A DNA stretch of 34,973 nucleotides, taken from assembly GCA_030247525.1 (NCBI GenBank), contig JAOTSC010000013.1, forward strand, positions 1 through 34,973, read 5' to 3'. How positions within the stretch are numbered: the stretch's first letter is position 1; every line of letters starts with the position of its first letter. The notes below the pieces were generated by a model. It did not search any database, had not been told where the DNA came from, and saw only the letters and a list, made by a program, of their open reading frames with translations. Origin of the DNA: a bacterium (GTDB lineage: Bacteria; Electryoneota; JAOADG01). Position numbers and translations under genes: made by a program. Of the stretch, positions 1 to 31,661 are shown piece after piece.

Positions 1-919
1 GACTGAGGTCACTGGCTTATCTGAGTTGCTATTGAGAACATGGGAGCGGCGATACAAAGTCGTAGTGCCATATCGAACAAATGCCGGACAAAGGTTGTAC
101 AACCAGAAAAACATTACCCGACTCCAGTATTTGAAAGCGCTAACAGGGAACGGTCGACGAATCGGAGACATCGCCCATTTAGACGATTCTACTCTGCAAC
201 AACTTGCAATGCCTTATGGAAAGTCTGATTTCGGAACGTTGGATATCGCCATGCAGAGTGTTATCGATGTGATGCGTAAGAAGTGCATTGGTTCGATACT
301 TTCGTTTGATCGCGAGTTGTTAGAATCGTTGTTGGATAGCTCACTCGCGAGATTCTCTCGCAGCGTGCTTCGCGATCATGTCATTTTTCCGGTACTGGTT
401 GAGATCGGTGATAAGTGGAGGCGTTCTGAGTTAAGTATCGCCCACGAGCATTTTGCCTCGGAAGTGATAAGTAACTTCATCACCACACATTGGCTATCCC
501 CTCGATTCACTTCGAACTCGCAGTTATTAGTAGTGGCAACTCCGGTCAATCATTTCCATTCGATACCGGCACTCTTTCTTGTCGATGAAGCAATGTCACA
601 GGGCTGGAATGCTTTGTACCTCGGTACCAATCTGCCAGCGAGTGATATTGCATTAGCTTGTCAAAAAAAGAACGCTTCGGCACTTGCACTAAGCATAGTT
701 CACTCAACTTCCGAATCATCACTTGAGACAGAATTAGTATCCATTCGAAAGTTGCTGACACCTGATTTTCCAATTCTGATTGGCGGAAGCGGTGCATCCA
801 AAATGCGAAGTTTGTTATCTCAAGTAAACGCTCGGTTCATGTTTAAATTCAGCGAGTTATCGAAGTTCTTTACAGAGTATTGTCAGAATTCGGGAAGTCA
901 TCTTGGAAACGAACTGTGA
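1..919 (+). CDS. MerR-family regulator with cobalamin-binding domain (LitR/CarH-like), 5' partial
   Basis: Transcriptional regulator whose family represses target promoters in the dark with adenosylcobalamin bound and releases DNA on illumination. The reading frame is open back to the first bases, so the true start lies outside the window. The visible part begins inside the MerR helix-turn-helix (LLRTWERRY, then GQRLYNQ and ITRLQYLKAL). The helical bundle above the corrin is shown by the W-x9-E-H signature in GDKWRRSELSIAHEHFAS. The B12-binding Rossmann domain follows, with HFHSIP in the place of the usual E/DxHxxG, YLGTNLP and LIGGSGAS. The His that would be the lower cobalt ligand is kept. 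The residue after the signature Trp is Arg, where Thermus CarH has the His that forms the light-state adduct. The gene directly precedes the lipid operon, with 73 bases to the next start, and is probably its regulator (inference). It could respond to B12 or to light. Confidence 0.88.
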   Translation, partial: TEVTGLSELLLRTWERRYKVVVPYRTNAGQRLYNQKNITRLQYLKALTGNGRRIGDIAHLDDSTLQQLAMPYGKSDFGTLDIAMQSVIDVMRKKCIGSILSFDRELLESLLDSSLARFSRSVLRDHVIFPVLVEIGDKWRRSELSIAHEHFASEVISNFITTHWLSPRFTSNSQLLVVATPVNHFHSIPALFLVDEAMSQGWNALYLGTNLPASDIALACQKKNASALALSIVHSTSESSLETELVSIRKLLTPDFPILIGGSGASKMRSLLSQVNARFMFKFSELSKFFTEYCQNSGSHLGNEL

Positions 920-992
920 TCACAAGTCTGAAAATCTTGCTGAATAATATTTGTTACTGCCTGATATCTCATCGCTTACCGGGAGGCATTGC

Positions 993-2285
993 ATGAATGA
1001 GTCTGGAGAACGAAAACCGGAAATGCTCCGGGCAACGCAACAGAAGATCGCAGTAGTCGGTTCGGGGATTTCCGGATTGATTGCAGCGAGTTTACTGGAT
1101 AAACATCACGACGTCACCATTTTCGAGGCGGGTGACTATTTCGGTGGTCATACTAACACGGTTGAGATTCAAACAGAAGGTAAAACGATCGCAGTTGATA
1201 CCGGGTTTATTGTATTTAACGATGTAACATACCCGAATTTTCTCAAGTTCCTCACCAAGTACAATGTGGCGTCGCAACCGACAACGATGAGCTTCTCCTT
1301 TCACGATGAAGCTACCGGCTTTGAGTACAATGGAACGACTCTCAACACTTTATTTGCCCAGCGTAGTAACCTGATTTCAGTCAAGTTCTATAAAATGTTG
1401 AGCGAAATCATTCGATTTAATCGCGAGGGAAAAGCGTTTGCCGCGAATGGCAATGAAACCATACTGCTTGGCGATTACCTACGAGAAAGAAAGTATAGCC
1501 AAGAGCTCATTGAATGGTATGTCATACCAATGGGGGCTGCCATCTGGTCATCTAAACATGATCAGATGAAGGAATTCCCCGCAAAGTACTTTCTACAATT
1601 TTTCAATCATCACCAAATGCTTAACGTGAACGAGCGACCGGTGTGGCGTACGATAAGCGGTGGTTCGCGCGAGTATGTTCGGGCAATGATGAGTCAATTC
1701 TCAGGAAAAGCACACACGAAGTCGCCGGTTGAGCGAATCGAGCGAACTGTCGCAGGTATCCGCCTGACCGTAACCGGTGCGCAACCAATGGAATTCGATC
1801 AAATCGTGATTGCAGCGCACAGCGATCAGGCACTTAGAATGTTGGCAGATCCATCGCAGTCTGAAACCGAAATATTAGGTGCGATTCCCTACCAAAAAAA
1901 TATGGCTTACTTACATAGTGATATTCGAGTGCTCCCATCTCGAAGAAAAGCGTGGGCTGCCTGGAACAGCCGCTTGTTAAAGGATAGCAACAGGACAGCA
2001 CTTTCCTACCAGATGAATCTTTTACAGAATCTGCCATTAAGGGAAACGCAATTGATAGTAACCCTCAATGAAAAGAGTGCAATCGATGAAACAAAAATGT
2101 TACAGGAAATTGAATATCATCATCCGGTTTACACATTGGAATCTGTTGCCGCACAACGTCGCAAAGCCGAGATAAGCGGAGTGAATCGTACCCATTATTG
2201 TGGAGCATATTGGCATTTTGGCTTTCATGAGGATGGCGCAAAGAGTGCGTTGGAAGTTGGAAGTCATTTCGGGGTTGCACTGTGA
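993..2285 (+). CDS. FAD-dependent oxidoreductase (amine-oxidase / desaturase-like flavoprotein)
   Basis: Flavoprotein of about 430 residues in the NAD(P)/FAD-dependent oxidoreductase superfamily related to phytoene desaturases and amine oxidases. The dinucleotide-binding motif VVGSGISGLIAASLL lies near residue 20, followed by the acidic strand end TIFEAG and FGGHTNTV. A TTG 14 codons upstream (951) is in frame, but the ATG at 993 has a good ribosome-binding site (GGGAGG, six bases away), so it is preferred. In Proteobacteria, homologues sit beside DUF1365 and cyclopropane-synthase-like genes in light- or singlet-oxygen-induced clusters. There a flavin-dependent acyl-chain desaturation is a plausible role (family knowledge plus inference). 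The substrate cannot be read from the sequence. The stop overlaps the next start by 4 bases. Confidence 0.87.
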   Translation: MNESGERKPEMLRATQQKIAVVGSGISGLIAASLLDKHHDVTIFEAGDYFGGHTNTVEIQTEGKTIAVDTGFIVFNDVTYPNFLKFLTKYNVASQPTTMSFSFHDEATGFEYNGTTLNTLFAQRSNLISVKFYKMLSEIIRFNREGKAFAANGNETILLGDYLRERKYSQELIEWYVIPMGAAIWSSKHDQMKEFPAKYFLQFFNHHQMLNVNERPVWRTISGGSREYVRAMMSQFSGKAHTKSPVERIERTVAGIRLTVTGAQPMEFDQIVIAAHSDQALRMLADPSQSETEILGAIPYQKNMAYLHSDIRVLPSRRKAWAAWNSRLLKDSNRTALSYQMNLLQNLPLRETQLIVTLNEKSAIDETKMLQEIEYHHPVYTLESVAAQRRKAEISGVNRTHYCGAYWHFGFHEDGAKSALEVGSHFGVAL

Positions 2286-3070
2286 CACTTATCCGTAAGA
2301 GTGCAATATACCGCGGAACAGTAATCCACAATCGAGTACAACCCAGGAAACACCTGTTCAGGTACGGTTTGTTTATGGTGTACATCGATCTATTGGAGCT
2401 GGAATCACTTTTCCCGGAGTCGTTGCTCTGGAGTATCCGGCGGTCCGCGGTTGTCGCTTTCCGGCGAAGCGATTATCTCGGTGATCCATCAATTTCCCTG
2501 GAAGACGCAATCCGACAAACGATCAAAGAAAAGACTGGAGTTCAAACCGAGGGTCCGATCCGAATGTTGACACATTTGCGATACTTCGGATATTGCATGA
2601 ATCCAGTAACATTCTACTATGTGTTTTCAAAGGATGATCGTCAGTTAGAATGCATTGTTGCAGAAGTGAATAATACTCCCTGGAACGAAAGATACACTTA
2701 TGTACTGCCAATCTCTGAAGCGAAGGAGAGGAATGATTATTACACGTGGGACTTTCCAAAACAGTTTCATGTTTCTCCTTTCATGGCGATGTCACAGCAG
2801 TACGACTGGCGGTTCGCAGAGCCTGGTGAACAACTATCAGTGACGATGGCTAATTATGAAAACGGACAATTCATGTTTCAAGCAGCGTTGCAACTGCATA
2901 AGCATACTTGGTCAAGAAATAGCCTGTTGGCAGCATTATTATCGTTTCCCTTCATTACGGTGAAAGTTATTGGCGCGATTTACTGGGAGGCGATCCGGTT
3001 ATGGTTTAAGAAAATTCCCTTTCACGATCATCCAAAACAAAATAATCCAAAAGGAGCTAACCTTGAGTGA
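2282..3070 (+). CDS. DUF1365 domain-containing protein
   Basis: A 262-residue DUF1365 protein of unknown biochemical function. Characteristic stretches are RHLRYFGY-like LTHLRYFGYCMNPVTFYY, EVNNTPWNERYTYVLP and HVSPFMAM. It starts with GTG inside the stop of the flavoprotein gene (GTGA overlap), which indicates translational coupling. A hydrophobic stretch near residues 210-235 may touch the membrane. DUF1365 genes almost always accompany an FAD oxidoreductase and a cyclopropane-fatty-acid-synthase-like gene, so a role in the same acyl-chain modification is expected, but no reaction is established. Its 3' end overlaps the next gene by 8 bases. Confidence 0.88.
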   Translation: MTLIRKSAIYRGTVIHNRVQPRKHLFRYGLFMVYIDLLELESLFPESLLWSIRRSAVVAFRRSDYLGDPSISLEDAIRQTIKEKTGVQTEGPIRMLTHLRYFGYCMNPVTFYYVFSKDDRQLECIVAEVNNTPWNERYTYVLPISEAKERNDYYTWDFPKQFHVSPFMAMSQQYDWRFAEPGEQLSVTMANYENGQFMFQAALQLHKHTWSRNSLLAALLSFPFITVKVIGAIYWEAIRLWFKKIPFHDHPKQNNPKGANLE

Positions 3071-4337
3071 GATACTGCTCGACTCCGCTGCGTTGATTAC
3101 ACAAAGTGGACGGACACCCTTGATCATTCGTTTTTTACGACAAAAGTTTATCGAACGGTTGTCGCGGATTTCGATTGGAACCTTGACAGTGATTGATCCC
3201 AATGGAACTTACTTACTTGGCAGCGACCACTCAATCCGGGCTACTCTACACATCAATAATCTGGAATTCTACCGAAAGGTAGCAGTTGGCGGAACGATTG
3301 GTGCTGCAGATGCGTACATCGACGGTTTATGGAAATCCGATGACCTTGTATCGCTAATAAGGTTATTCATCCGAAATCGAGCTATCATGGATCGAATGGA
3401 AGGTGGCTTGGCATGGATTGGAAACGCAATATTTCGATTAACTCACAGGAAGAATCGTAACACCATAGATGGTAGTAAAGCGAACATCTTAGCACATTAT
3501 GACATCGGTAATGAGTTCTATCAGTTGATGCTGGATGAAACGATGGCATATTCTTCTGCCGTATTCCTGTCGCCAGACTCAACGCTTACAGAGGCTTCCA
3601 CAGAAAAATTCGACCGCTTGTGCAGAAAATTGGATTTAAAGCCGCAGGATCAAGTCATCGAGATTGGTACTGGATGGGGTGGATTTGCGATTCATGCTGC
3701 TTCAAAATACGGATGTAAGGTGACCACTACTACGATCTCGGCTGAGCAGTATCAATATGCAAAAGCCGCCGTAGAAAGGGCAGGTCTTACAGGTCAGATT
3801 ACACTGCTCAATCAGGATTACCGGTTACTAACCGGAACCTTTGATAAGTTAGTTTCCATTGAGATGATAGAAGCGGTGGGAGCGGAATACATCGGAGAAT
3901 TTGTGGAAAAGTGTTCACGGTTGTTGAAGCCGGATGGACTTATGACGATTAAAGTGATAGCTTCTCCTGATCAGCATTTTGATGAGTACCGAAAGCGGGC
4001 GGACTTCATCCAAAGTCACATTTTCCCCGGTTCCTGTCTTGTTTCGATTGCTCATTTGTTAGAGAATGTTAAATTGAAAACCAATCTTCGCCTGTTAGGA
4101 CTTGAAGACATTACTCTACATTACGCCCGAACGTTGAATGAGTGGAATCTGCGATTTCAAGCAAATCGTTCCAGAGTATCCGATTTGGGGTATCCGGATT
4201 CGTTCCAGCGAATGTGGGAGTATTATTTAGCATACTGTGAAGCAGGTTTCCGGGAACGTTTTATCGGCAATGTTCAACTGATGTTCGCCAAACCGGAAAA
4301 TCGGCTTGATCCGGTCACTATGATGCAGGAGAAATGA
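3063..4337 (+). CDS. Cyclopropane-fatty-acyl-phospholipid synthase family methyltransferase
   Basis: SAM-dependent methyltransferase of 424 residues in the Cfa family. The family adds a methylene or methyl group from S-adenosylmethionine to the double bond of acyl chains already in phospholipids. The N-terminal lipid-binding domain (residues about 1-130) is present. It is followed by LAHYDIGNEFYQLMLDET (about 142), the SAM loop VIEIGTGWGGFA (about 200), VSIEMIEAVG, LLKPDGLMTIKVI and ADFIQSHIFPGSCL, all typical of Cfa enzymes. The open frame runs back to 2970 inside the previous gene. A TTG at 3063 has AAGGAG six bases upstream and gives the standard length, so it is chosen. The product may be a cyclopropane or a methylated acyl chain, as with the UfaM-type enzymes of the furan fatty acid pathway; sequence alone does not decide. 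Confidence 0.9.
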   Translation: MSEILLDSAALITQSGRTPLIIRFLRQKFIERLSRISIGTLTVIDPNGTYLLGSDHSIRATLHINNLEFYRKVAVGGTIGAADAYIDGLWKSDDLVSLIRLFIRNRAIMDRMEGGLAWIGNAIFRLTHRKNRNTIDGSKANILAHYDIGNEFYQLMLDETMAYSSAVFLSPDSTLTEASTEKFDRLCRKLDLKPQDQVIEIGTGWGGFAIHAASKYGCKVTTTTISAEQYQYAKAAVERAGLTGQITLLNQDYRLLTGTFDKLVSIEMIEAVGAEYIGEFVEKCSRLLKPDGLMTIKVIASPDQHFDEYRKRADFIQSHIFPGSCLVSIAHLLENVKLKTNLRLLGLEDITLHYARTLNEWNLRFQANRSRVSDLGYPDSFQRMWEYYLAYCEAGFRERFIGNVQLMFAKPENRLDPVTMMQEK

Positions 4338-5374
4338 TGGTATCAGTAGTTATCCAGTTAATGGAACACGGCTATCTCCCTGATTCGATGATTCGATTCG
4401 GCATTCGCAAACTGCTTCGAGAGAGATTGAAAACATGTGAGCTGGAAAAATCAAACGGTAGTATGCAGCGGTTTGTCAATTCGCTGAGTTCTGGTCCAGT
4501 AGCTCTTGTACCTGAAAAAGCGAACGAGCAGCATTACGAACTGCCGGCTGATTTCTTTGAATTGGTATTGGGTCCCAACCGAAAATACAGTTCCTGTCAC
4601 TATAACAATCGAACCGATTCGCTTGAGCAGGCAGAACAGAACATGCTTTCGCTTACCTGTGAACGGGCTGAGATCAGTGATGGAATGGATATTCTTGAGT
4701 TGGGATGCGGTTGGGGATCGCTTTCCCTCTGGATGGCGAGGAGGTATCCGAAATCCCGGATTACCGGAGTTTCAAACTCATCAGAGCAAAGAAAGGCGAT
4801 TCTCGATCGAGCTGCTGCCGAGGGTTTAACTAACATCGAAATCATTACGGCTGACATGAATAGTTTCGAGATCAACCGGCAGTTTGATCGGGTAGTTTCC
4901 GTCGAGATGTTTGAACACATGCACAATTACCAGGAATTGTTACATCGAATCTCACAGTGGTTAAAACCGGATGGAAAACTATTTGTTCATATCTTTTCAC
5001 ATCGCACTTACTGTTATCCATTTGTAACACAGGGTGACTCCGATTGGATGGCAACCTATTTCTTTACCGGTGGTCTTATGCCATCACACAATTTGCTTTC
5101 TCAGTTCAACAAACACCTGACAGTAGAAGCAGATTGGTTCGTCTCGGGCGTCCATTATTCAAAAAGCAGTAGGGATTGGCTGATAAACATGAAACTTCAG
5201 CGTGAAGCAATAATCGACATACTTCATCAGCACTACGGTAAAAATGAAGCTCGATTGTGGTTTCAGCGGTGGCGAATTTTCTTTATGGCATGCGAGGAGT
5301 TGTTCGGAATGGACAACGGCAAAGAATGGGGAGTATCTCACCTCAGATTTGTCAAGAACGCAGGGACGAAGTAA
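4334..5374 (+). CDS. Second SAM methyltransferase of the cyclopropane-synthase / coclaurine N-methyltransferase-like branch
   Basis: A 346-residue class I SAM methyltransferase, shorter and clearly diverged from the gene before it. Motifs are ALVPEKANEQHYELPADFF, YSSCHYNN, the SAM loop ILELGCGWGSLSLWMARRYP (about 120), ITGVSNSSEQR, VVSVEMFEHMHNY and WLKPDGKLFVHIFSH. The pattern YSSCxY...GCGWGSLxL...VTGxxNS...ELFEHM is also that of plant coclaurine N-methyltransferases, which are members of this superfamily. Bacterial members of this branch are mostly uncharacterised. ATG at 4334 overlaps the previous stop. The next codon, ATG at 4337, is better spaced from AGGAG (5 bases rather than 2) and may be the true start. 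Context suggests a lipid substrate, perhaps a head-group amine or acyl chain (inference). Confidence 0.88.
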   Translation: MMVSVVIQLMEHGYLPDSMIRFGIRKLLRERLKTCELEKSNGSMQRFVNSLSSGPVALVPEKANEQHYELPADFFELVLGPNRKYSSCHYNNRTDSLEQAEQNMLSLTCERAEISDGMDILELGCGWGSLSLWMARRYPKSRITGVSNSSEQRKAILDRAAAEGLTNIEIITADMNSFEINRQFDRVVSVEMFEHMHNYQELLHRISQWLKPDGKLFVHIFSHRTYCYPFVTQGDSDWMATYFFTGGLMPSHNLLSQFNKHLTVEADWFVSGVHYSKSSRDWLINMKLQREAIIDILHQHYGKNEARLWFQRWRIFFMACEELFGMDNGKEWGVSHLRFVKNAGTK

Positions 5375-6114
5375 TGTTGATATTCTTCATAGGACATTGG
5401 TTCTCATCACTTTTTGTGCAGACCTTTTTTTTGCACCGGTTCGCCTCACACCGGATGTTTAAACTATCAGAGCGCTGGTTGAAATTTTGGTATGTAACTA
5501 CGGTGATACTTCAGGGGGTTTCGTTCTTGAACCCCCGCGCTTATGCGATTTTACATCGACGTCATCACGCGTATAGCGATGGAGTGTTAGATCCACATTC
5601 ACCGATGCGACATCGAAATGTTTTCAGTTTAATGAGAGAAACATACGAAAATTACCTGACTGCTCTATCACGAAACAACAAGGAATTCGAGAAATACGGC
5701 AGCAATATTCCCGAGTGGCCTTGGTTAGACCGGCTTGCCGACCAGTGGAGTGTTCGTATTGGATTTGTGGTAGTTTACACGCTGATTTACATAGTATTTG
5801 CCCCCTCCATCTGGTGGTTTCTGTTGTTACCGATTCACTTCATTATGGGTCCGATCCATGGTGCGATTGTGAATTGGGGAGGACACAAGTATGGATATGT
5901 CAATCATCCTGATACTGGTGATCACTCACGAAACACACTCCCCTTTGATTTTTTAACTTTAGGGGAACTTTTCCAGAATAATCATCATCATTCACCGGGA
6001 CGGTTAAACTTTGCACACCGCTGGTACGAGATTGATCCAGTTTACTGGGTGATTCGTTTAATGGCAGTTATCGGGTTGGTTCAGATTACAGATACAAAGC
6101 TGAAGCAGATTTGA
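5374..6114 (+). CDS. Membrane fatty-acid / acyl-CoA desaturase (stearoyl-CoA desaturase type)
   Basis: Integral-membrane di-iron desaturase of 246 residues. It would insert a cis double bond into an acyl chain at the cytoplasmic face, using oxygen and an electron carrier. Three histidine boxes are present: HRFASH (HX4H, near residue 21), HRRHH (near 64) and NNHHHSPG (near 205). The extra conserved stretch GPIHGAIVNWGGHKYGY and the ending WYEIDPVYWVIR match bacterial stearoyl-CoA-desaturase-like enzymes. The frame is open back to 5257 inside the previous gene. The ATG at 5374 (TAATG overlap, AGGGA seven bases upstream) gives the usual N-terminus. It is the last gene of the run and probably makes the unsaturated substrate for the two methyltransferases (inference). 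A gap of 147 bases separates it from the convergent lipocalin gene. Confidence 0.9.
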   Translation: MLIFFIGHWFSSLFVQTFFLHRFASHRMFKLSERWLKFWYVTTVILQGVSFLNPRAYAILHRRHHAYSDGVLDPHSPMRHRNVFSLMRETYENYLTALSRNNKEFEKYGSNIPEWPWLDRLADQWSVRIGFVVVYTLIYIVFAPSIWWFLLLPIHFIMGPIHGAIVNWGGHKYGYVNHPDTGDHSRNTLPFDFLTLGELFQNNHHHSPGRLNFAHRWYEIDPVYWVIRLMAVIGLVQITDTKLKQI

Positions 6115-6261
6115 TGTATGACTTCACCGGAAAGCAAATCCTTACTAAAAAAGAGTAATGAAGGTTTCCACTCATAACCTATCTCGATACGAATTTTATC
6201 TGATGTATTAAAAGGCAGAAACCCTGTGATTCGAGCCATCAATCACTGAAATTCCAACCAC

Positions 6262-6810
6262 TCACTGGATATCTTTTGTCCACGTTTGTGGAACTCGCTG
6301 GATCTTAAACGGGTCAAATCCAGCTTTTTCAAGCTTGGAAATCAGATGTTGTATTAGTGAATCGGGAGGATTCGGTTCCCGTGTCATTATCCAAGCATAG
6401 CTTCGGTTAGACGTTCCGACGACGGTATAAGTGTACTCCTGATCCAGATCGAGCACGTAATATGGGAACTTGATTGGCCAAAAGAACTGAACCCGCCATT
6501 CTGAAAACGTCGAGCGATCCACCACAAACCCCTTAGCCGTATAGGTTTTCAGTTCACCGGTAGGGGTCCCTTTACGAAAAGTGAATCGAATGTCGACGTC
6601 GCCGTCTTCCCGCAGCGAATAAGTTTCAATGGCATTCACTGCCCCTTTCTCAATAAACGTTGGAATGTTGGCTACAACATACCAGTCGCCCATGAATCGA
6701 GTTGGATCAATAGTGGAAACTTTGTTCAACTCACCCATTTGTTTTGCCTGAAAACAGGATGAACTCAGTACAGTTAGTGCAAGAATTGCGGTTAAACAAC
6801 GTCTCTTCAT
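6262..6810 (-). CDS. Lipocalin family protein (Blc-like), probably exported
   Basis: Bacterial lipocalin of 182 residues. Such proteins bind fatty acids, lysophospholipids or oxidised lipids, usually anchored in the outer membrane. The N-terminus MKRRCLTAILALTVLSSSC is a signal peptide. The Cys could be lipidated, but the lipobox (SSSC, with no Leu at -3) is weak. The mature part opens with FMGDWYVVANIP, the family's GxWY motif, and later has WRVQFFWPIKFPYYVLDL and YAWIMTREP, as in Blc. The open frame continues upstream to 7053 inside the preceding gene. ATG at 6810 is chosen because it starts the signal peptide and overlaps the upstream stop by 4 bases. It is the last gene of the minus-strand operon and probably carries a lipid substrate or product (inference). 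Confidence 0.9.
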   Translation of the reverse strand: MKRRCLTAILALTVLSSSCFQAKQMGELNKVSTIDPTRFMGDWYVVANIPTFIEKGAVNAIETYSLREDGDVDIRFTFRKGTPTGELKTYTAKGFVVDRSTFSEWRVQFFWPIKFPYYVLDLDQEYTYTVVGTSNRSYAWIMTREPNPPDSLIQHLISKLEKAGFDPFKIQRVPQTWTKDIQ

Positions 6811-7580
6811 TGCGATACCTTCTTGGGAATCCAAGGGATGAACGCATTTGTACGTTGCGAGTACTCGTTGTAACCAGGTTTGGTTCTCATACTCCGCTCC
6901 AGCAATGGAACGCCTGAGAAGAATCTCAAAAGCAGTGTTATCATTACCGGCGAAATCAATATCCAATCGTATCCGGCAGCCACCCCAAACGCTCCAAATC
7001 CCCACCAAAGTAAAGCTTCGCCGAAGTAATTTGGATGTCTCGAATACTTCCAAAGTCCCGTCCTTAGAAACGACTCACGCTGTTGAAGTTTGAGGTACTT
7101 TGCAAGTTGTCCATCAGCAGTCATCTCGATAATAAAACCGATAGTCCAAATCACAATGCCAATCGTATCCCAAAGTGTCCAAAATTCGGGAGCAGTTTGC
7201 ATGGAAACCGCGAGTGGTCTCGCTATCACCCAAAGCAGAACGCCTTGAAGCAGAAAGACCCGGAAGAAACTCGTCCACCACCAGTTTTGACCGCCTTCTT
7301 CGCGCCATTTCCGATAGCGGGAGTCTTCGGGTTTTCCACGATGTCTGCTCCAGATATGGAAAGCCAATCTACCTCCCCATATAATTGTCAGTCCAAAAAC
7401 TAACCAAGCCCGCCAGTGTACCTCGCCGGTCACAAAATGTACCAGCGCAACCACACCGAATCCCGGACCCCACGCAATATCAATGATGCTGACATCACGT
7501 AACTTCACACTCACTAACCATGTAACAATTAGATATCCAATCAAAGCGCCAATCTCGATCAGCAGTATCTCAGTGTTCAT
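6807..7580 (-). CDS. DUF1295 membrane protein (steroid 5-alpha-reductase-like fold)
   Basis: Polytopic inner-membrane protein of 257 residues with DUF1295, related to the C-terminal domain of 3-oxo-5-alpha-steroid 4-dehydrogenases. Visible hallmarks are VSIIDIAWGPGFG (about 30-42), RLAFHIWSRHRGKPEDSRY, the conserved RTGLWKYSRHPNYFGEALLWWG near residue 170, and LLERSM. The RHPNYxGE motif is shared with NADPH-dependent reductases and isoprenylcysteine methyltransferases, so it is a reductase or methyltransferase of a lipid-like substrate whose identity is unknown. Start and stop each overlap the neighbouring genes by 4 bases, so it is surely co-transcribed with the START-like and lipocalin genes. 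Homologues are recurrent in light-responsive DUF1365/Cfa loci. Confidence 0.9.
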   Translation of the reverse strand: MNTEILLIEIGALIGYLIVTWLVSVKLRDVSIIDIAWGPGFGVVALVHFVTGEVHWRAWLVFGLTIIWGGRLAFHIWSRHRGKPEDSRYRKWREEGGQNWWWTSFFRVFLLQGVLLWVIARPLAVSMQTAPEFWTLWDTIGIVIWTIGFIIEMTADGQLAKYLKLQQRESFLRTGLWKYSRHPNYFGEALLWWGFGAFGVAAGYDWILISPVMITLLLRFFSGVPLLERSMRTKPGYNEYSQRTNAFIPWIPKKVSQ

Positions 7581-8251
7581 CGATAGTTCCTTCTTTTCGC
7601 TTCAGCAGTTACATCTTCCACTTGAGTTAAAATGCCTTTCTTATTGATGTAGTCAAGTACCCAGCCCGAAAGAGCTCCACTACTTGCCATCGAAAGACGG
7701 TAATCCACTAACGTCCCACCATCAGACTTACTTACCAAAATCCATTGACCTGCACCTATCTCAATAATTGAAGCGTCATTCATAACTTTCATCGAAAGAC
7801 TGTTCGTAAGCGCAAGATTCGCTGGTGTCTCAAGAGTCCATTGCAGAAAAAGAGTGTCTCCAGCCCGTGATTTTTTCATTCGGTAGAAGAAGTATCGATC
7901 CGGTAGCAAGGGGATATCCCATCGCTGATAACCAATTTGTACTGAACTGTCCTGAACGACGATACCAGCTTGAAGCCGTGAGGCTGCAGTCAAGAACCGG
8001 TTGTAAGCAGGAACATCGTAAACTACTTCAGCTATCAATTCTGCCGGAGCATTTGTTTCACCAGAAATGGCGAGGGCAGGACTCTCAAATCCGTCTATCG
8101 TTCTCTTTGAATGTGTCCATCCTGAAGGATATGTTTGCTCTTTGACCCAACCGCTTTCCGTGGAAAGCTTTTTCAGTAACAATTCATTAGATGAACCGAT
8201 AGCATAGCTAACGGAGAACAACAGCAGAATTGGGATAACTAACCTTTTCAT
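7577..8251 (-). CDS. Exported START / SRPBCC-domain protein
   Basis: A 224-residue protein with an N-terminal signal peptide (MKRLVIPILLLFSVSYAIGS) followed by a START-like helix-grip domain, the type that encloses hydrophobic ligands. Recognisable segments are VVYDVPAYNRFL, RWDIPLLPDRYFFYRM and the GGTLVDYRLSMA strand before the long C-terminal helix. It is predicted to be periplasmic or lipoprotein-free secreted; no lipobox is seen. It lies between the DUF2878 and DUF1295 genes with 4-base overlaps on both sides. A lipid-binding or lipid-transfer role between membranes fits both fold and context, but the ligand is unknown. Confidence 0.85.
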   Translation of the reverse strand: MKRLVIPILLLFSVSYAIGSSNELLLKKLSTESGWVKEQTYPSGWTHSKRTIDGFESPALAISGETNAPAELIAEVVYDVPAYNRFLTAASRLQAGIVVQDSSVQIGYQRWDIPLLPDRYFFYRMKKSRAGDTLFLQWTLETPANLALTNSLSMKVMNDASIIEIGAGQWILVSKSDGGTLVDYRLSMASSGALSGWVLDYINKKGILTQVEDVTAEAKRRNYR

Positions 8252-8787
8252 CTACGCCCCTTAATGATTGCGTGTTTACTCATCAGCCACATCATTACGC
8301 CCCAAGCAACTCCCAAGGTGATCAACGCTATTGCAGGCCGGGTAAGCGATATTGCACCGAGACCAGCGGCACCACGATAAGTCAGTGGACCTCCAATTAG
8401 CCCAAGAAGAATCGCGACAATCGGCCGGCTCAGGATTGATTTGAAGGAATGGTTAACAGTCAGAGCGAATCCGAGCCAAATTCCGCCAATCCACAGTGGA
8501 GCAACAATAGCGTTTTCTCCCCAGCTGGATTTATACTCAACAAAATTCAAAGCTGTAAGTACACTATCGAAAAGGAATCCAGAGATGACAATCACCCCTG
8601 TCACGAGAAATTCGCCTTTGATGAACGTTTTCGATGCGATGTGCCAACTCATGAAGAGGATAGCAAGAAGCGGTCCGAACCACCAGAAGTCATTTCGGGC
8701 AGCAAGAACACTTCCCCACCAAACGACCATGTATCCTATGGCGTTGATAAACACTTTCAGCCGGTCATCAGCAAATCGATTCTTCAT
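8248..8787 (-). CDS. DUF2878 integral membrane protein
   Basis: Small hydrophobic protein of about 179 residues with roughly five membrane spans, recognised as DUF2878 from FINAIGYMVVWWGSVLAA near the start, the FxxGPLLAILFMSWHIA segment and APLWIGGIWLGFALTVNHS. A TTG three codons upstream (8796) is in frame, but ATG at 8787 is the more normal start. No strong Shine-Dalgarno sequence is visible. It is the first gene of the minus-strand operon. Just before the start codon lie repeats that could be a regulator site. No function is known for the family. It recurs beside Cfa-like, DUF1365 and B12-MerR genes, so a part in envelope lipid change is inferred. Confidence 0.85.
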   Translation of the reverse strand: MKNRFADDRLKVFINAIGYMVVWWGSVLAARNDFWWFGPLLAILFMSWHIASKTFIKGEFLVTGVIVISGFLFDSVLTALNFVEYKSSWGENAIVAPLWIGGIWLGFALTVNHSFKSILSRPIVAILLGLIGGPLTYRGAAGLGAISLTRPAIALITLGVAWGVMMWLMSKHAIIKGRR

Positions 8788-8789
8788 AT

Positions 8790-8818
8790 TATGCAATACC
8801 TATACAAATGTTTTACTA
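8790..8818 (-). promoter_or_regulatory. Candidate operator: three 11-bp-spaced repeats before the DUF2878 operon
   Basis: On the minus strand TTGTATA (8801-8807) and TTGCATA (8790-8796) are spaced exactly 11 bp apart. A third, poorer copy TAGTAAA (8812-8818) lies at the same spacing. CarH-type B12 regulators bind tandem 11-bp direct repeats, one per DNA-binding domain. The position immediately before the start codon would suit repression. No clear -35/-10 pair could be assigned, so this is tentative. Confidence 0.3.
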
Positions 8819-12108: not shown

Positions 12109-15100
12109 TTAAGAGAGCCTTGATGCCGTCGAATTACTTTCATCACAGCTCTGTTTTGGTATCAGCACTTCGACCCAATGTTCTTTTTGGTCATCGATTA
12201 GTGGAATGGTATTATCGGGTTGTTCAATACCGTCAACATTGAAGTGCATTTCATCATTCTCAGCGGGGGCTTGCAAAACCTCGATGTGGTAGACTGTTTC
12301 TCGATAACGGTAGTGAATTTTGTATCCCTTCCAATCGGACGGGAGACACGGGTTCATTCGTAGTTTATCCACCTCAAGCCGAAGTCCCAGAAGCGACTCC
12401 ATAATCAACTGATACAACCATCCCGCCGATCCCGAGTACCATGTCCAACCTCCTCGGCCGGTATGAGGCGGCGCTGAGTAGACGTCGGCAGCGACTACAT
12501 AGGGTTCCACTTTATAGATGTTAGTCTGTTCAAACGTTATTGCATGGTTTACTGGGTTGATTATTGTAAAAAGCTCCCATGCCTTTTGGCTGTCTTTCAT
12601 GCGAGCGAAAGCCATTGCCGCCCAAATTGCGGCATGTGTATACTGCCCGCCATTTTCTCGAACACCCGGAACATATCCTCGAATGTAACCGGGATCCAGC
12701 GTCGATTTATCGAACGGTGGATCTAACAATTGGATTAACCTTGTCTCGCGACGAACGAGGTTTTCATCCAATGCTTTCATTGCTTGATAAGAACGTCCAT
12801 TTTCTCCTGCACCCGAAAGTACCGCCCAACTTTGTACAATCGAATCTATCTTGCATTCAGAGTTAGCCGACGATCCCAGTGGTGAACCGTCGTCGAAGTA
12901 TGCACGGCGATACCACTCGCCATCCCAGCCATTGGTCTCAATATTGCGACGAAGTTCCTCCGCTTCTTCGATACAATGTTTGGCAAATACCTCATCTCCT
13001 TGAATCCGGGCAATACTCGCAAAGCGAGTAAGAACTTCGTAAAGAAAGAATCCCAACCACACGCTTTCGCCTTTACCGTGCTCACCAACTAAGTTGTATC
13101 CGTCGTTCCAGTCACCGGTACCGATGAGTGGCAGACCATGCTTGCCGTATTTAAAACCATTCCGTATTGCTCGAACGCAGTGTTCATATAGACTCGCAGT
13201 CTCTTCCGAATGTGCTGGTAAGTCGTAATAAGAATCTTCGTCCGCTTTTACCAAGCGACCTTGGAGGAAGTGAATCGGCTCATTTAATAAATCGGTATCT
13301 CCGGTCTCAAGGATATAGCGACAGGTTGCAAGCGGTAGCCAGAGGTAATCATCTGAACAGTGAGTTCGTACACCTCGACCGGAGGGTGGATGCCACCAAT
13401 GTTGTACATCACCTTCGAGAAATTGATGTGACGCGCAACGGAGCAGATGTTCACGTACGAGATTCGGTTTGGCGTGGATGAGCGCCATAACATCTTGCAA
13501 TTGATCCCGGAAACCGAACGCGCCACCCGATTGGTAAGTTGCAGTTCGCGCCCAGAGACGGCATGCAAGAGTTTGATAAACCAGCCAGCCATTTGCAAGC
13601 ACATTTAGCGATTGGTCGGGCGTTTCCACATTAATTGTACCAAGGGTGTGTGTCCAATGCTGCCAAACCATTTCGAGAGCATTGTGTGCTGCAGTTAATC
13701 CTCGAAAGCGTTTAACCAGTTTTCGAGCTTCTTCGGTATCTCGCCCGACACCAAGTCGGAATACAATCTCACGCTCTTGGCCGGGAGTTAGATCAAAGTT
13801 TACTTGGATTGCAGCGCAAGGATCAAGACCTGCCCCCACCTTATTGGAAAGATGTGTTTGTTTCATTGCTGCCGGAGCATTTTGTGTACCATTGCGTCCG
13901 ATAAATTCAGTCCGATCACCGCTTACAGAGCGAATCGTATCATCCACATCGAAAAATGCAGTCCGGTCGCGGAACTCTGTGTTATAAGGGTTACGCGCGA
14001 AAAGCGATCCACAATCTTGATCAATTTCGGTTATCAGATGCATACTCGATTTTGAAGGGAGGTCGCCAAGTACCCATTCGGCATACCCAGTTGCAGAAAG
14101 CCGTCGAGATCGGTCTGAGACGTTTCGAACTTTGAGCACCATAAATTTGATAGCTGCATCCAACGCCACATAAACCCATAACTCAGAATAAATTCCCCGT
14201 TCGGTGTGCTCGAAAACGCTATACCCGAATCCATGCCTGGTAACATAAGGTGTTATCCCACGGCATGGGAGTGGCGTTGGTGACCAGAAATGGCCGCGTT
14301 CTTCATCTCGGAGATATATTGCTTCACCGCTCGAATCACTAACAGGATCGTTACCCCAGGGTGTAAGACGGAATTCGTGGGCATTCTCGCTCCAAGTATA
14401 CGCCGATCCACTTTCCGAGATGACTGACCCGAACTCCGGGTTTGACAACACATTCACCCATGGAGTGGGAGTTAACTGGCCGTTTGCAGTTGTAATCACA
14501 TATTCGCGCCCATCCGGGGTGAATCCTCCTAATCCATTAAAAAACTTTAGATCGGAGCGCGGTAACGGAATGACCGCCAGTGGTTCTGGACGGTGGGTTC
14601 GGGATGGGTTAATGCGAGGAACAAGTACTTCTCCTAAACCACGGCCATTGATCTGATTTTCCAACGATCCATGGCTGTCAGTGATGATCACACGAGCAAC
14701 TGTCTGTATAAGGATGCGGTCTTTCTCAGCGATTTGATCGGCAGGCCGCACGAAAATTCCTCCAGGTCGATCGGTCGCGTTGGCTTCGGTACCTGAAGCA
14801 ATGAGTCCCATGATCTGGTCGTGCAGAATTTGCCGGTAACCGGCGTGATCTTCATTCCAAATCACCAGATCCACCGACAGTCCTTTTAAACGCCAATAAG
14901 CATGTGCCTGAATGAGTTGTCGGACTAAGAGGATATTAGAAGGGTCTTCAATCTGCAATAATACAATCGGCAAATCGCCAGAGATGGCGTGTCCCCAAAG
15001 ACCAGACTGCCCACGGTGGTTCTTCATAATGGTGCTTGGGTCGGCTCGCAGTGAGATATTTGCATAAACAATCGAACTGGCAAGGCGCCCATAGAGTTGT

Positions 15101-18100
15101 GCATCGGTTTCGGTGGCATTGATCTGGCGGAGTAGTACTTGGCTATGAGTCCACGCCAACTCGAAAACTCGATCCGCCAGACGCCGGTCCTGATACTTTT
15201 CGACCAAACTTAAAGCGGCTTCACGGGTTTCAGCGATACCGGAAACAATGTTTATCGTTGCGGATTCTTCCGGTTCCAAAGCTATCCGGTAGCGGATTGC
15301 AACAATTGGATCAAGTACAGAGCCTTCGGTGCCGGAAAGCAATCCTGCATCTTCGCTCATCGCTTGGGGACAAGCAACCGTGTTGCCACGACCGACGAAT
15401 TTCATGCGATCGGTTTCGTATGAGATTTCTCCAACCTCCGCTCCATGCACAGCCATTAAATGCAACATCCATGGTGGGTGCTCACTAAGCGAACGAGGTC
15501 TGCGTGTACATAGGATTGCGCGCTGTCGACGAATGATTTCTGTCTGCACAAATAGATTACTGAATGCCGAGTGCAAAGCATCGGCAGCAGGCGACGCCAA
15601 TACTACTTCCGCGTAACTTGTGACTTCGATTGTGCGCCGTGTCCGGGCTCGATTGGTAATTCGGGTACGACGTACCTCGATGTCATCTTCTGGAGAAACA
15701 GCGATCTCAGTATACGTGTCAAAATTGTGATCACGACCGCGGAATTCAGCTCTCCCTTCCGAAAAGATTGCCTCAAAACTCTTTGAACTCTTGTGCGTCG
15801 GTTGAAAAGCAGTCGACCAAAATTCGCCACTTGAAACATCGCGGAGATAACAAAAAGTCCCCCAATTATCACGGGTACGATCTTCACGCCATCGAGTAAC
15901 TGCAAGATCTTTCCAGTGGCTATAGCCGCCACCGGCATTTGTGACCATAACATGATATTTGCCATTCGAAAGCAATTGCACTTCCGGGTTCGGTGTGTCA
16001 GGACTTGTGAAAACGCGAATCGGCGTTTCTGGAGTGCTGGAACTTAAGTCATGTTCTGATAGCTTGGTAGTGTGAGCATAGAACGCCGATACCTTGGGAA
16101 TTCGTTCTTGAAGCAAAAGAAGTGTCGCTTGGAATAATGGTTCCGACTTGAATCGTTTTTGCATCGGGTGATCTTGGAGCAGATAATCCAATGAGAGCAA
16201 ACTCATGCCTTGATGGTGAGCCATAAAAGAGCGAACTATTACGCATGACTGTCCACGCGGAAGGCGTGATGGTGTATAGTCAATCGCTTCATAGAAGCCA
16301 TAACGACTTTCAAAGCCTTCTGATGCGAGTCGCTCGAGGTTTTGGCATGCTTCTTTTGGGGCGACCATCAGAGCCAATGCTGAGGCATACGGTGCTATGA
16401 CTAAATCATCCGCAAGCCCACGTTTGAGTCCTAATCCGGGGACGCCAAAAGCGCGGTATTGGTAATTGGATTGAGCATCGATTCCATTGTAACCGCTTTC
16501 TGAAATACCCCACGGCACATTTCGCTTCTTCCCATACTCAATTTGCCTTGCTACCGCCGCCTTGCAAGTCTGATCGAGTAAGGTATGTTCATAGGTCGGC
16601 ATCACCAGGAGTGGCATCAAATATTCGAACATCGAACCACTCCATGAAAGGAGAATCGGTTCCCCACCAGCGGTAGTTAGCAGACGTCCCAATGCAAACC
16701 AGCTCTCTTGCGGTACCTTTCCCTGTGATATCGCAACGAATTCCGAAAACCTCGCTTCCGAGGCAAGCAGATCATAGTAACTGGAATCCCTTCGGCATTC
16801 AGCAACATTGTAGCCAATAGTCAGAAGATGACGGGTTTTGTCATACAGGAAATCATAATCCATCTGAGCGAGTAAATCACACGACCGGGCAAGTTCGTTG
16901 ATCGCTACAATTCTTGCTTTACATGACTGGGTTCCAGTCGCGATCTGGCTTTGAAACTTATCGAGTTGTGCTCTCTCTTCCGAAGTTATCGAAGAAGTAA
17001 GGTGACCTTCAATGATCTTTGGTAATTGTATCCCTATGGCGGTTAACTCACGCAACGATAGATTTTTATCGAGTTCAGCGGAAAATTCGAAACAGTTATG
17101 AGAAAGTAACAGCTCTGTCCATGGAACGAGTAGAATCAGTTCATTGTATGCATCGCGACACTGTGTGGCGAACGCACCAACCCACCAGTTCAATCGGTTT
17201 TCTGGATCGGCTTCGAGAACTTCCAAACCTGCAACCAATTCTGCAGCGGACTTCATCAACTGGTCTAAACACAACCGATATGCTGTTAGTGTGGCAGGTG
17301 GATTCTGGGTTACGGACTTCAAATCTTGTTGAATTTGTGCAAGTTGGGCAGAGAAGTCTGAGCAAGTTTCTTTTCCGGTAGAATTACCAAGAGTCTCTAT
17401 GATCACCCCGATGGTGTCACACAAACCTTCAAAAAATTGAGTACGAATGATCTTGTGGTCTGGTAAGGCAAGTAAACCTGATCGCAATGTCAAAAGGTGA
17501 CCAGCGAGATTCCCGCTGTCTACCGACGATATGTAGAGTGGCAGTAACGGATTCAAGGTTTGTGTGTCATACCAGTTGTAGAAATGCCCTTTGTGCCGTT
17601 CCAAGGCATTCATGGTATGGAGCGTTTTTCCCGTACGTTCAATGAGTTTTCCGGTTGAAACATAACCAAAATCAAACGCGGACAAATTCGCCAGCAAGGC
17701 AAGACCGATGTTGGTCGGCGACGTGCGATGTGCAATCACTGCAATCGGATGCACCTGATAGTTGTCGGGCGGCAACCAATGATCTTCTGGACCAACGAAA
17801 GTTTCAAAGAACGACCATGTTTTCCGGGAAAGCTTCCGTAAGAAAATTACCTGATTCATCGACAACTTGCCCCAGCAACGAACGAGTGGTAGACTTATCC
17901 ACCAAGCAATCGCGGGAGAGGCAAACCAAAGAATCAGTATGGGTGCAGCGATAACAAGGGCAAATGGCTTCGATACAATAAGCATCAACATTGTGGAAAC
18001 GGCAACGAACGGACCTATCCACATAGTCAGATAAGAGTCTGCGAGGTCAGTGCGGCAATTGCGCTCCGATTCGCCGGACGGATTCCATTGAAGTAGTCGC

Positions 18101-24048: not shown

Positions 24049-24099
24049 TCGATTGTTTCATTAGACAGTTGGATTACTGCAACATTTTTGAGGTCAATC

Positions 24100-25353
24100 A
24101 TGGTGAAAATACTTTCACTATGGGTGTTGTTGTGTATGCTCGCCTTGATGCCTTCCGGTGTTCGGGCGGTTGAGCAACTATCCCTTAGTGATGCGATATC
24201 AATCGCATTAACTAAAAATCCAGAAGTGATTCGTGCAAACCGCGAGATCGACGCATCGCGCGGACGATTCTGGCAAGGAATCTCGTTACCGCCAACTACC
24301 GTATCCGTTGCATACGAAAATGTCCCGGTAGGAGAAAAAGCGAAGCACTACCGCGAACGTGTCGTTGAAATCGAACAATCGTTCGATTTCCCGACCACTT
24401 ATGGGTTACGGGGTAAGTCGCTTGCCGCTGAGACGAAAGTTGCTAATGCATCTTTTACGAACGTGCAACAGACGATTATTCAGCAAGTAAAAATCGCATA
24501 CTACACCGCGGTGGCGTTGCGCAGCAAAATGGAGTTAGCCGAAGAAAACCGGAAAATAGCCGAGGATTTTTCCCGCAAAGCCGATTCGCGGTTTACTCAC
24601 GGCGAAAGTACCCGCCTCGAAAAACTCACGGCAACGGTACAATACACTCAAGCTCAGAATGATGTCGTAATTGCCCGCAACCGGTTCCAAATGGCAATGG
24701 GAGATCTTCTCTATTCGCTGGGGCGGGATCGTTACGATGTAAGTACATCCATCGTACTGACCGACAGTCTTGTATATCAACCACATTTCGCTAAAATGGA
24801 TTCGCTGTTCCAAAGTGCACGACAATCCAATCCCGAGCTTCGCGCCAATTCGTTCAGAGTGAAAAGCGCAGCCATGAATCGCGCGTTGGCGTGGTCGAGT
24901 CTGTTGCCATCCCTGAGTCTTGGCTACAATCGCGTTACAACATCCAACGAAGAGTCGAGTTATGGAGTCATCTTCGGGATGTCGGTTCCACTCTGGTTTA
25001 TGTTCGATCAACGCGGACAAATCCAAGAAGCTACAGCGAATCTACGCAAAACCGAATCAGACCTAACAACCGTTGAGAATTTAGTCAGATTAGAAGTTCA
25101 GAACGCATTTCTCGAGTTGAACACGCAGGAACAGCAGGTATTGCTTTACCAATCCGATTTACTTCCTCAGGCGAAGGAAGTGTATCGCGTCGCTTCCTCC
25201 AGTTTTGAAACCGGTGAAATCAGTTACATCGAATATCTGCAAGCAAAGCAATCGCTGATTGCGATGGAATCAGAATACATCGATGCATTACTAAGCGTCA
25301 AATCTGCAATGGCAAAACTTGAGAAAGCTGTCGGCAAGGAGTTACACCCATGA
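24100..25353 (+). CDS. TolC-family outer-membrane efflux protein (CusC/CzcC-like)
   Basis: Outer-membrane channel of 417 residues, the exit duct of a tripartite metal-efflux pump. The signal peptide is MVKILSLWVLLCMLALMPSG, ending in VRA. The mature protein begins with LSLSDAISIALTKNPEVIRA, the usual TolC-repeat opening. Long helices rich in Ala, Gln and Glu follow, and the second half repeats the pattern (NPELRANSFRVKSAAMNRAL, then VRLEVQNAFLELNTQEQQV). An in-frame TTG at 24088 exists, but ATG at 24100 has GAGGT five bases upstream and starts the signal peptide. The stop overlaps the adaptor start by 4 bases, so the two are coupled. Confidence 0.92.
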   Translation: MVKILSLWVLLCMLALMPSGVRAVEQLSLSDAISIALTKNPEVIRANREIDASRGRFWQGISLPPTTVSVAYENVPVGEKAKHYRERVVEIEQSFDFPTTYGLRGKSLAAETKVANASFTNVQQTIIQQVKIAYYTAVALRSKMELAEENRKIAEDFSRKADSRFTHGESTRLEKLTATVQYTQAQNDVVIARNRFQMAMGDLLYSLGRDRYDVSTSIVLTDSLVYQPHFAKMDSLFQSARQSNPELRANSFRVKSAAMNRALAWSSLLPSLSLGYNRVTTSNEESSYGVIFGMSVPLWFMFDQRGQIQEATANLRKTESDLTTVENLVRLEVQNAFLELNTQEQQVLLYQSDLLPQAKEVYRVASSSFETGEISYIEYLQAKQSLIAMESEYIDALLSVKSAMAKLEKAVGKELHP

Positions 25354-26597
25354 TATACATGAAACGGTTCGGCGAAATTAGTGCGGTTCAGCGGTTTTTA
25401 CTCGTTTTAGTAATTCTATTCGCTTTATTGGCTGTCGGTATGGTGGGATGCACAAGTAAAACCAAAGAAGTCGATTCGCATTCGGAACACTCGGAAGAAG
25501 AGGGCGAACATCAAACACCGACAGTATCGCTTACCCGCGAGGCAATACAAACGATTGGTCTAACGACGATTGCGGCGGAGGAAAAAGTCGTATCCGGTAC
25601 ACTTACGGCGGCGGCTAAATTAGTTCCCAATCAGGATTACGAAGCGCAAGTCGGGTCGCTGGTGCAGGGGCGAGTTCACAAAGTACTCGTGAGTGTCGGG
25701 GATCAGGTTAAGCAAGGACAGGTTCTAATGCAGATTGAGAGCATGGAAATCGGAACCTTGCTTTCCGAGTTTATGAAAGCCAAGGCTGAACTGAAGTTCA
25801 CTGACGCCAATCGCAAACGGCAGAAAAGTCTCCTTGAAGACAATGCCGGTTCTCAGAAGTCGCTGTGGGAAGCGCAGACCGCCTATGAAAAAGCGCTTGC
25901 CGACTATTCAGCGGTAGAAAAGCGAATTCATTCAATCGGACTCTCTGTATCCGATATGCAAGATTCGGGTACAGCAGTTGATGTGGGTCGTGCAGTCGAT
26001 AATGGTCTACTTCCCATTAAAGCGCCGATTTCGGGAACGGTAATCGAACGTACCGTTGTCATCGGTCAAATGGTGGATGCATCGAGTACGGCGTTTCGTA
26101 TCGTCAACACCAGTACCCTCTGGGCAGACGGGCATATTTATGAAAGCGATGCACAACGGTTGGTCGGAAAGCCTGAAATCACGTTGACAGTATCGGCAAT
26201 TCCCGGTGAACGATTTCGCGGTAAAGTGATTTTTATATCACCGGTAGTCGATGAACATACCCGAACCATTACCGTGCGCGCATCAATTCCGAATGCTTCC
26301 GGTCGTTTGAAGCCGCAAATGTTCGGCGAACTCCATCTTCCGATGGACGGAACTTCCAAGGGAATCGTGGTACCAGCAGAGTCGGTCGTGAAGGATAATA
26401 CTGTCAATTTTGTTTTCGTTGCGATGAACGATACCACGTTTGAGCGCCGTGAGATTCAACTGGGTGTCGCATTCGACAATCAGATCGAAGTGAAGCAGGG
26501 ATTGGCAGTTGGCGACCGCGTGGTAGTAAAAGGAATATTCGAACTAAAATCGGAGTTTAACCGCGACGCAATCGTGGGAGATCACAACCATGATTGA
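25350..26597 (+). CDS. RND efflux periplasmic adaptor subunit (CusB/CzcB family), probable lipoprotein
   Basis: Membrane-fusion protein of 415 residues linking the RND pump to the TolC channel. The N-terminus has a hydrophobic segment ending in VGMVGC, a probable lipoprotein cleavage site. It is followed by a His/Glu-rich stretch (HSEHSEEEGEH, about residues 43-53) likely to bind metal. Then come the barrel-sandwich/lipoyl half (YEAQVGSLVQGRVHKVLVSV), a helical hairpin (about 130-190), the second lipoyl half (LPIKAPISGTVIERTV), and the beta-barrel and membrane-proximal domains (SAIPGERFRGKVIFISPVVD). AAGGAG lies eight bases before ATG at 25350. The gene overlaps both neighbours (4 and 8 bases). 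Confidence 0.92.
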   Translation: MIYMKRFGEISAVQRFLLVLVILFALLAVGMVGCTSKTKEVDSHSEHSEEEGEHQTPTVSLTREAIQTIGLTTIAAEEKVVSGTLTAAAKLVPNQDYEAQVGSLVQGRVHKVLVSVGDQVKQGQVLMQIESMEIGTLLSEFMKAKAELKFTDANRKRQKSLLEDNAGSQKSLWEAQTAYEKALADYSAVEKRIHSIGLSVSDMQDSGTAVDVGRAVDNGLLPIKAPISGTVIERTVVIGQMVDASSTAFRIVNTSTLWADGHIYESDAQRLVGKPEITLTVSAIPGERFRGKVIFISPVVDEHTRTITVRASIPNASGRLKPQMFGELHLPMDGTSKGIVVPAESVVKDNTVNFVFVAMNDTTFERREIQLGVAFDNQIEVKQGLAVGDRVVVKGIFELKSEFNRDAIVGDHNHD

Positions 26598-29682: not shown

Positions 29683-30078
29683 CAATGGAAATTCTTTACA
29701 GATTGTTGAACAAGTTTCGTCTTAATGCGGCTGCGAGATGGTGATCCGTCGAAATCCGCTCAGTTCTTGAGCAGATATTTGAATAATAATGACCCTCGAA
29801 GAGCAGTCTTCGAGGGTCTGCTCGAAGAACTCACGACTGTTTGATACAACTTTTGGTAAATACACTTGGGCACGCGGTTTTTGAATGGTTACCTTCTATA
29901 AGGCGTGACCGTCAGAGTTTCACACGGGAGTATGAATATTGCACTGTAACTCACTGATTCGCTGTTAAACAGAATTTGCTTGGTTAACAGGAAGTTTACA
30001 AATGTATGATCCTACGACACGTGTGTGTACACAGCAGAATTGAGTAAAACGCCCAGTCTCTTTGAAAATGGAGTTCAA
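29683..30078. other. Intergenic region after the efflux operon
   Basis: This 396-base gap contains the hairpins at 29758-29772 and 29791-29818 and a palindromic stretch at 30017-30033. The frame open from 30025 is an upstream extension of the secreted-protein gene and is judged untranslated. No other gene is seen. Confidence 0.5.
29791..29818. terminator. Hairpin, probable terminator of the efflux operon
   Basis: A perfect 12-bp stem (GACCCTCGAAGA / TCTTCGAGGGTC) closes a GCAG loop, 109 bases after the pump gene. On the plus strand no T-run follows. On the minus strand the hairpin is followed by ATTATTATT. A weaker hairpin (GCTCA-gttct-TGAGC, 29758-29772) sits just upstream. Transcript end or mRNA-stabilising structure. 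Confidence 0.5.
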
Positions 30079-31587: not shown

Positions 31588-31661
31588 CGGACTTGCTATT
31601 GAACAGAATTCACAGAATTAGCCGAATGCAAGTACCGTCTCTAACAAGAAAGGTGTTAAAC

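Follow-up and report, generated by a model that had tools for sequence, protein, structure and literature searches.

What might a bacterium make with two methyltransferases resembling cyclopropane fatty acid synthase (Cfa), set among a flavoprotein, a DUF1365 protein, a membrane desaturase and a B12-binding MerR regulator, and facing a block of membrane and lipid-binding proteins? These ten genes fill positions 1-8796 of a 34,973-nucleotide stretch of DNA, here called the window, from a member of the phylum Electryoneota (GenBank assembly GCA_030247525.1, contig JAOTSC010000013.1). An earlier note had proposed that this locus makes a lipid, that it includes a B12-MerR regulator, its own desaturase and an exported lipid-binding pair, and that it is related to the UfaM/UfaD/UfaO pathway; the protein families and gene neighborhoods support that account. 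Going further, we consider it likely from sequence that the locus directs the synthesis of furan fatty acids (FuFAs), most likely with a dimethyl furan as product. It looks like a member of the known pathway in its dimethyl, FufM-containing form, with genes for supply and handling attached. FuFAs are antioxidant lipids of fish, plants and a few bacteria, and their extent among bacteria is poorly known. New here is how widely and consistently the cassette occurs; DUF1295, DUF2878, the desaturase, the START protein and the lipocalin also emerge as furan-lipid candidates.

Enzymes of the probable furan pathway

The reactions of UfaM, UfaD, UfaO and FufM have been demonstrated for homologs in two alphaproteobacteria. 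UfaM methylates vaccenate, UfaD is a desaturase of the flavin adenine dinucleotide (FAD) type that produces a methyl-diene, and UfaO, which carries DUF1365 in Rhodobacter sphaeroides, forms the furan ring using O2 (PMC7380195). By sequence, the flavoprotein, the DUF1365 protein and the first Cfa-like enzyme of the window correspond to UfaD, UfaO and UfaM. The gene for the UfaD-type FAD desaturase adjoins the UfaO gene, and the order ufaD-ufaO-ufaM is identical to that of RPA2571-2570-2569 in Rhodopseudomonas palustris (PMC7380195). In Halomonas, ufaM, ufaD and ufaO are also consecutive, and ufaM expressed in Escherichia coli yields 11-methyl-octadec-12-enoate (PMC12089945). The earlier note had counted three families of the locus as having no known reaction; DUF1365, as the UfaO family, has one (PMC7380195), and DUF1295 and DUF2878 remain without an assigned reaction. 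The two Cfa-like methyltransferases of that note are indeed both CMAS proteins, but they are not equivalent, being of the UfaM and FufM types. With these types assigned, together with UfaO for DUF1365 and the UfaD type for the flavoprotein, the product can be named.

General family models liken both methyltransferases to cyclopropane synthases, as would be expected of an ordinary cyclopropane fatty acid or membrane-remodeling stress locus. We regard such a locus as highly improbable. His266 of E. coli Cfa, a bicarbonate ligand, is missing from the entire UfaM family, with Gln at this position in 70 of 71 members and Lys in the window. The family signature Glu267/Ala271/Gln297 replaces the Gly, His and His266 of Cfa, in which the Gly and His flank a conserved Glu. 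Furthermore, the second enzyme is of the coclaurine N-methyltransferase (CNMT) type, and UfaD and UfaO would be superfluous in a cyclopropane locus. We rejected the cyclopropane candidate on the absence of Cfa His266 from the UfaM-type protein. Among solved structures, E. coli Cfa is the nearest to that protein (6bqc, 2.4e-48; CNMT, 3.6e-17). The NCBIfam Cfa equivalog cut-offs are not reached, and the host genome holds no full-length CMAS protein beyond the two of the window.

The lysine at UfaM position 297 is unique in our set (Gln in 70/70 relatives). Its codon, AAA at 3951-3953, is a single base away from the Gln codon CAA, and it could reflect a true change of specificity or an assembly error. 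Along with the distance of the host phylum from the tested species and an identity of just 26-50% between the window UfaO and DUF1365 members outside the phylum, this residue would fit a repurposed pathway, in which altered specificity of UfaO or UfaM ends the route at a methylated mono- or diene chain or gives some other oxidized acyl chain. That outcome seems improbable to us, given that the UfaO-type protein retains the residues conserved among DUF1365 relatives and that the whole gene set travels together.

The AlphaFold2 (AF2) model of UfaO, with a predicted local distance difference test (pLDDT) score of 92, had no significant match in the PDB (best, 2.5e-3), and so we draw no mechanism from it. 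The weak best matches were calycin-type barrels (CpcS/CpeS, nitrobindin and lipocalin), and a lipid or heme pocket might be present. A genome from a different phylum has a single 649-residue frame that joins UfaO to UfaM (L008:8301-10247), with UfaD and a FufM-type gene directly upstream.

The second methyltransferase

FufM of R. palustris (RPA0924), which is 26% identical to UfaM, produces dimethyl furan (PMC7380195), and FufM shares 37.9% identity with the Arabidopsis lipid-droplet methyltransferase LIME1 (PMC10940516). The second CMAS protein of the window is 25-27% identical to UfaM-type relatives and 47-50% identical to rhizobial relatives of its own type. It retains a His at the Cfa His266 position, and its PDB matches favor CNMT (6gkv, 5.6e-67) over Cfa (5.7e-33); LIME1 belongs to the same CNMT-like group. 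We predict that this enzyme is of the FufM type and adds the second methyl group to the furan. In a quick tree it pairs with its counterpart from L006, a genome of the same family as the host; the deeper branches are weakly placed, and the tree gives no decision for or against transfer between phyla.

Neighborhoods were compared in 80 named genome loci found with the FufM-type protein, and because the sample was drawn in this way, its neighbor counts are not unbiased frequencies. DUF1295, which is related to steroid reductases, is encoded no more than 150 bp away from the FufM-type gene in 51 of the 63 loci holding both, and in some loci the pair occurs without adjacent Ufa genes. These observations would suit a different division of labor, in which UfaM, UfaD and UfaO make a monomethyl furan while the FufM-type enzyme, instead of methylating the furan, works with DUF1295 as a separate module on a different unsaturated lipid, which the two methylate and reduce to give a saturated, branched chain in the manner of BfaA and BfaB in actinobacteria. 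We judge this unlikely. DUF1365 is out of view in 21 of the FufM-type loci, yet 18 of these 21 genomes carry it elsewhere. In addition, FufM works in vitro without an added partner (PMC7380195), and Legionella holds DUF1295 and Ufa genes with no FufM-type gene within view.

Distribution and gene neighborhoods

The reading of the locus as a dimethyl furan cluster is consistent with how its genes are distributed. The earlier note would have taken scattering of these genes in close relatives as a refutation of its proposal, and they are not scattered. L006 has nine of the ten in a single co-directional run (33-57% identity), and the families recur jointly across about ten phyla of the sample (Pseudomonadota, Planctomycetota, Verrucomicrobiota, Fidelibacterota [Marinimicrobia], Bacteroidota, Myxococcota, Kiritimatiellota, Gemmatimonadota, Bdellovibrionota and Acidobacteriota), on which grounds a chance grouping was rejected. 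A second genome of the phylum (L007) has the five enzyme genes. All of ufaD, ufaO and ufaM are present in 58 of the 80 loci, in the order ufaD>ufaO>ufaM on one strand in every one of the 58. Their neighbors include DUF1295 (63 loci), the desaturase (47), DUF2878 (36) and the lipocalin (20).

DUF1365 itself occurs in 77 of the 80 genomes, beside the FufM-type gene in 59 and elsewhere in 18; the three genomes without it are metagenome-assembled genomes (MAGs) and possibly incomplete. By comparison, one of the 14 control genomes has it, as does one of 22 genomes from outside the phylum, and it is patchy within the phylum (3/39 genomes). The desaturase and lipocalin, which the earlier note pointed out here, are not special to this host: these extra genes accompany Ufa genes in many Gammaproteobacteria, and a part of them does so in Planctomycetota, Bacteroidota and Marinimicrobia. 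Proteobacterial plasmids hold the same parts, and one from Acinetobacter includes a desaturase and a lipocalin as well. Our search of the literature found no description of the wider cluster, though it may have been mentioned earlier.

These neighborhoods predict complete furan pathways, including fufM, in Planctomycetota, Bacteroidota, Marinimicrobia, Verrucomicrobiota, Gemmatimonadota and many Gammaproteobacteria. Such lineages have cultured members (Rhodanobacter, Lysobacter, Luteibacter and Pontiella), in which the prediction is open to ordinary fatty acid analysis.

Substrate and oxygen

The DesA-type desaturase probably supplies the monoenoic substrate, because no FabA equivalog was found in the host or its relatives, where matches were weak and far below the cut-off; this fits the role and is not proof of it. 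His-box positions are conserved in 50-51 of 51 cluster desaturases, and in the L006 genome the cluster enzyme is the sole desaturase of the FA_desaturase Pfam family. The window genome has a second desaturase of that family (G000:C225:3448-4218; L120), 51% identical to the cluster's and beside a short-chain dehydrogenase/reductase gene. Haem-copper oxidases are present in the host, making the use of O2 plausible.

Accessory proteins

The minus-strand gene at 7577..8251 encodes a protein for which Pfam gave no significant START match (E 0.18). Its AF2 model (mean pLDDT 70, moderate) matches a STAR-related lipid transfer protein of Xanthomonas (3qsz, 3.7e-10) as well as human StAR and CERT, and a helix-grip START fold is thus supported at the level of the model. 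Relatives encode additional small SRPBCC-like proteins within or next to their furan clusters (L006:1387-1902 and L096:2621-3097); these are absent from the window.

Regulation

Class I B12 photoreceptors are marked by the elements GxxW, EH, GxxH and GxxxP (PMC11796333). The MerR protein of the window, whose N terminus is cut off, keeps GxxW, EH, GxxxP and the cobalt-ligating lower-axial His, with NxxH in place of GxxH. Its B12-binding match (29.3 bits) is slightly below the cut-off of 32.1, and the truncated protein does not reach the CarH equivalog cut-off. Since three of the four signature elements are kept, light control of the locus is a plausible possibility. MerR proteins near such clusters at L022, L052, L062 and L076 have all four elements. 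The earlier note saw no photolyase gene, which is true of this contig; its upstream edge adjoins the cluster, and the genome has a photolyase gene on another contig (G000:C14), with no furan genes beside it.

Proposed pathway

We infer that the homologs carry out the same reactions here, and we extend this to the desaturase, transport and light-control roles. The DesA-type desaturase would produce a monounsaturated acyl chain, the double bond of which UfaM would methylate and shift with S-adenosylmethionine. UfaD would then form a conjugated methyl-diene, UfaO would insert O2 to close a monomethyl furan, and FufM would add the second ring methyl to give the dimethyl furan. Such dimethyl furan fatty acids, antioxidant membrane lipids described from a few proteobacteria, are probably singlet-oxygen scavengers, and the product would be a membrane antioxidant consumed by singlet oxygen. 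DUF1295 and DUF2878 may be membrane helpers, the exported START protein and lipocalin probably serve to bind or carry this lipid, or what it breaks down to, within the envelope, and the B12-MerR protein probably represses the gene set in the dark.

Several points weigh against this proposal. The furan assignment in this phylum is drawn from sequence, and that of FufM was reached by way of related proteins and not from the RPA0924 sequence. To these must be added the sampling with the FufM-type protein, the Lys at UfaM position 297, the Asn that replaces Gly in the GxxH element of MerR, and a cluster (in genome G001) with no MerR gene in view. Finally, single deletions of the three other genes of the R. 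sphaeroides operon left fatty acids unaltered (PMC7380195), which means that accessory genes may do something else.

More speculatively, DUF1295, DUF2878, the desaturase and the exported START-lipocalin pair could be undiscovered parts of a widely shared, all-in-one furan cassette. Such a cassette would make its own monoene, build a furan lipid with two methyl groups or with further changes, and move it to the outer envelope to be sacrificed as a shield against singlet oxygen. A B12 light sensor would switch it on, in bacteria other than Proteobacteria. We view this extended scheme as possible and rather doubtful.

Comparison with known systems

R. palustris CGA009 has the same enzyme families, the same ufaD-ufaO-ufaM order and a dimethyl furan fatty acid as its product (PMC7380195). 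Its fufM is remote from these three genes, whereas the corresponding gene of the window directly follows ufaM and is accompanied by genes for the desaturase, DUF1295, DUF2878, the START protein and the lipocalin. R. sphaeroides (operon RSP1091-1087, plus RSP2144 as ufaM) shares UfaD, UfaO and UfaM with the window, and its furan system protects against singlet oxygen. It differs in having an unlinked ufaM, a monomethyl furan only, and control by ChrR instead of a B12-MerR protein; the furan operon is raised in a chrR mutant (PMC7380195).

Two Marinimicrobia loci are also comparable. L021 carries, in a single run, the same nine of the ten genes as L006 (DUF2878-START-lipocalin-UfaD-UfaO-UfaM-FufM-desaturase-DUF1295), and L096 has a MerR gene along with the window's DUF2878-START-DUF1295-lipocalin order. 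Both are co-directional, in contrast to the two facing blocks of the window. The light-inducible LitR regions of Pseudomonas mendocina and Pseudomonas putida also combine a LitR-family MerR gene, an FAD oxidoreductase and ufaM, but that LitR is of class II, is thought unable to bind B12 and has a LOV protein as partner, and a photolyase lies in the cluster (PMC9758184). Acinetobacter plasmid pYUSHP14-1 (L010) brings together lipocalin, desaturase, UfaD, UfaO, UfaM, DUF1295 and FufM-type genes; it differs in lacking DUF2878 and START beside them and in having two-component regulators and a photolyase nearby.

Layout of the locus and other features of the window

The ten-gene locus described by the earlier note holds up: all ten open reading frames (ORFs) are present on the strands it gave, nine with a Pfam family match and START, the exception, recognized by fold (Table 1). 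The plus-strand block reads MerR-UfaD-UfaO-UfaM-FufM-desaturase, opposite a minus-strand block of DUF2878-START-DUF1295-lipocalin. Each block is very probably a single operon, because adjacent genes share a few bases where they meet (at 2282, 3063, 4334 and 5374 on the plus strand; at 6807-6810, 7577-7580 and 8248-8251 on the minus strand). Promoter and terminator scans gave no more signal than shuffled sequence.

TABLE 1 Coordinates of the ten genes, with the evidence for each assignment
Feature	Position	Strand	Evidence
LitR/CarH-like MerR regulator with cobalamin-binding domain, 5' end cut by contig edge	2..919	+	Pfam MerR_1 1.5e-9, B12-binding_2 1.5e-8
UfaD-type flavoprotein fatty acyl desaturase	993..2285	+	Amine-oxidase/NAD_binding_8 domains; gene order
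UfaO-type DUF1365 protein, predicted O2-dependent furan-forming enzyme	2282..3070	+	DUF1365 2.6e-81
UfaM-type fatty acyl C-methyltransferase, Cfa-like with N-terminal domain	3063..4337	+	CMAS 2.5e-76; TTG start after AAGGAG
FufM-type methyltransferase, CNMT-like, predicted to add second furan methyl	4334..5374	+	CMAS 3.2e-43; CNMT best PDB matches
DesA-type membrane acyl desaturase, predicted monoene supplier	5374..6114	+	PF00487 (FA_desaturase), NF049918
Blc-type lipocalin, N-terminal export signal	6262..6810	-	Lipocalin_2 4.2e-35; NCBIfam Blc 8e-23, under equivalog cut-off
DUF1295 membrane protein, steroid-reductase/ICMT-like	6807..7580	-	DUF1295 1.1e-64
Exported START-fold lipid-binding protein (predicted)	7577..8251	-	Signal-like N terminus; AF2 model vs StAR family
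DUF2878 membrane protein; start ATG 8787 or TTG 8796	8248..8796	-	DUF2878 4.8e-31

The window is an entire MAG contig (G000:C13) of a 3.59-Mb genome in 305 contigs. Its edge cuts off the 5' end of the MerR gene and hides the upstream context, and its first 25 bases matched no other contig of the genome that might continue it. A recent foreign island was rejected, as the GC content of the cluster matches that of the rest of the contig, and a carotenoid locus was rejected, as carotenoid genes are absent from the window.

Beyond the cluster, a YCF48-type repeat protein (31593-33791, plus strand) shows nine matches to the repeat along with a Por_Secre_tail sorting domain, and a second sorting-domain protein adjoins it (30025-31587). 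These sorting domains are the sole support for the earlier description of the host as belonging to the Fibrobacterota-Chlorobiota-Bacteroidota (FCB) type. On the minus strand, 12109-20898 encodes a 2929-residue protein with the domains of a cyclic beta-glucan synthase: two supersandwich domains of glycoside hydrolase family 94 (GH94), a GH94 catalytic domain and a glucoamylase-like domain. Three plus-strand genes at 24088-29682 encode a resistance-nodulation-division (RND) efflux system of the CusCBA/Czc type.

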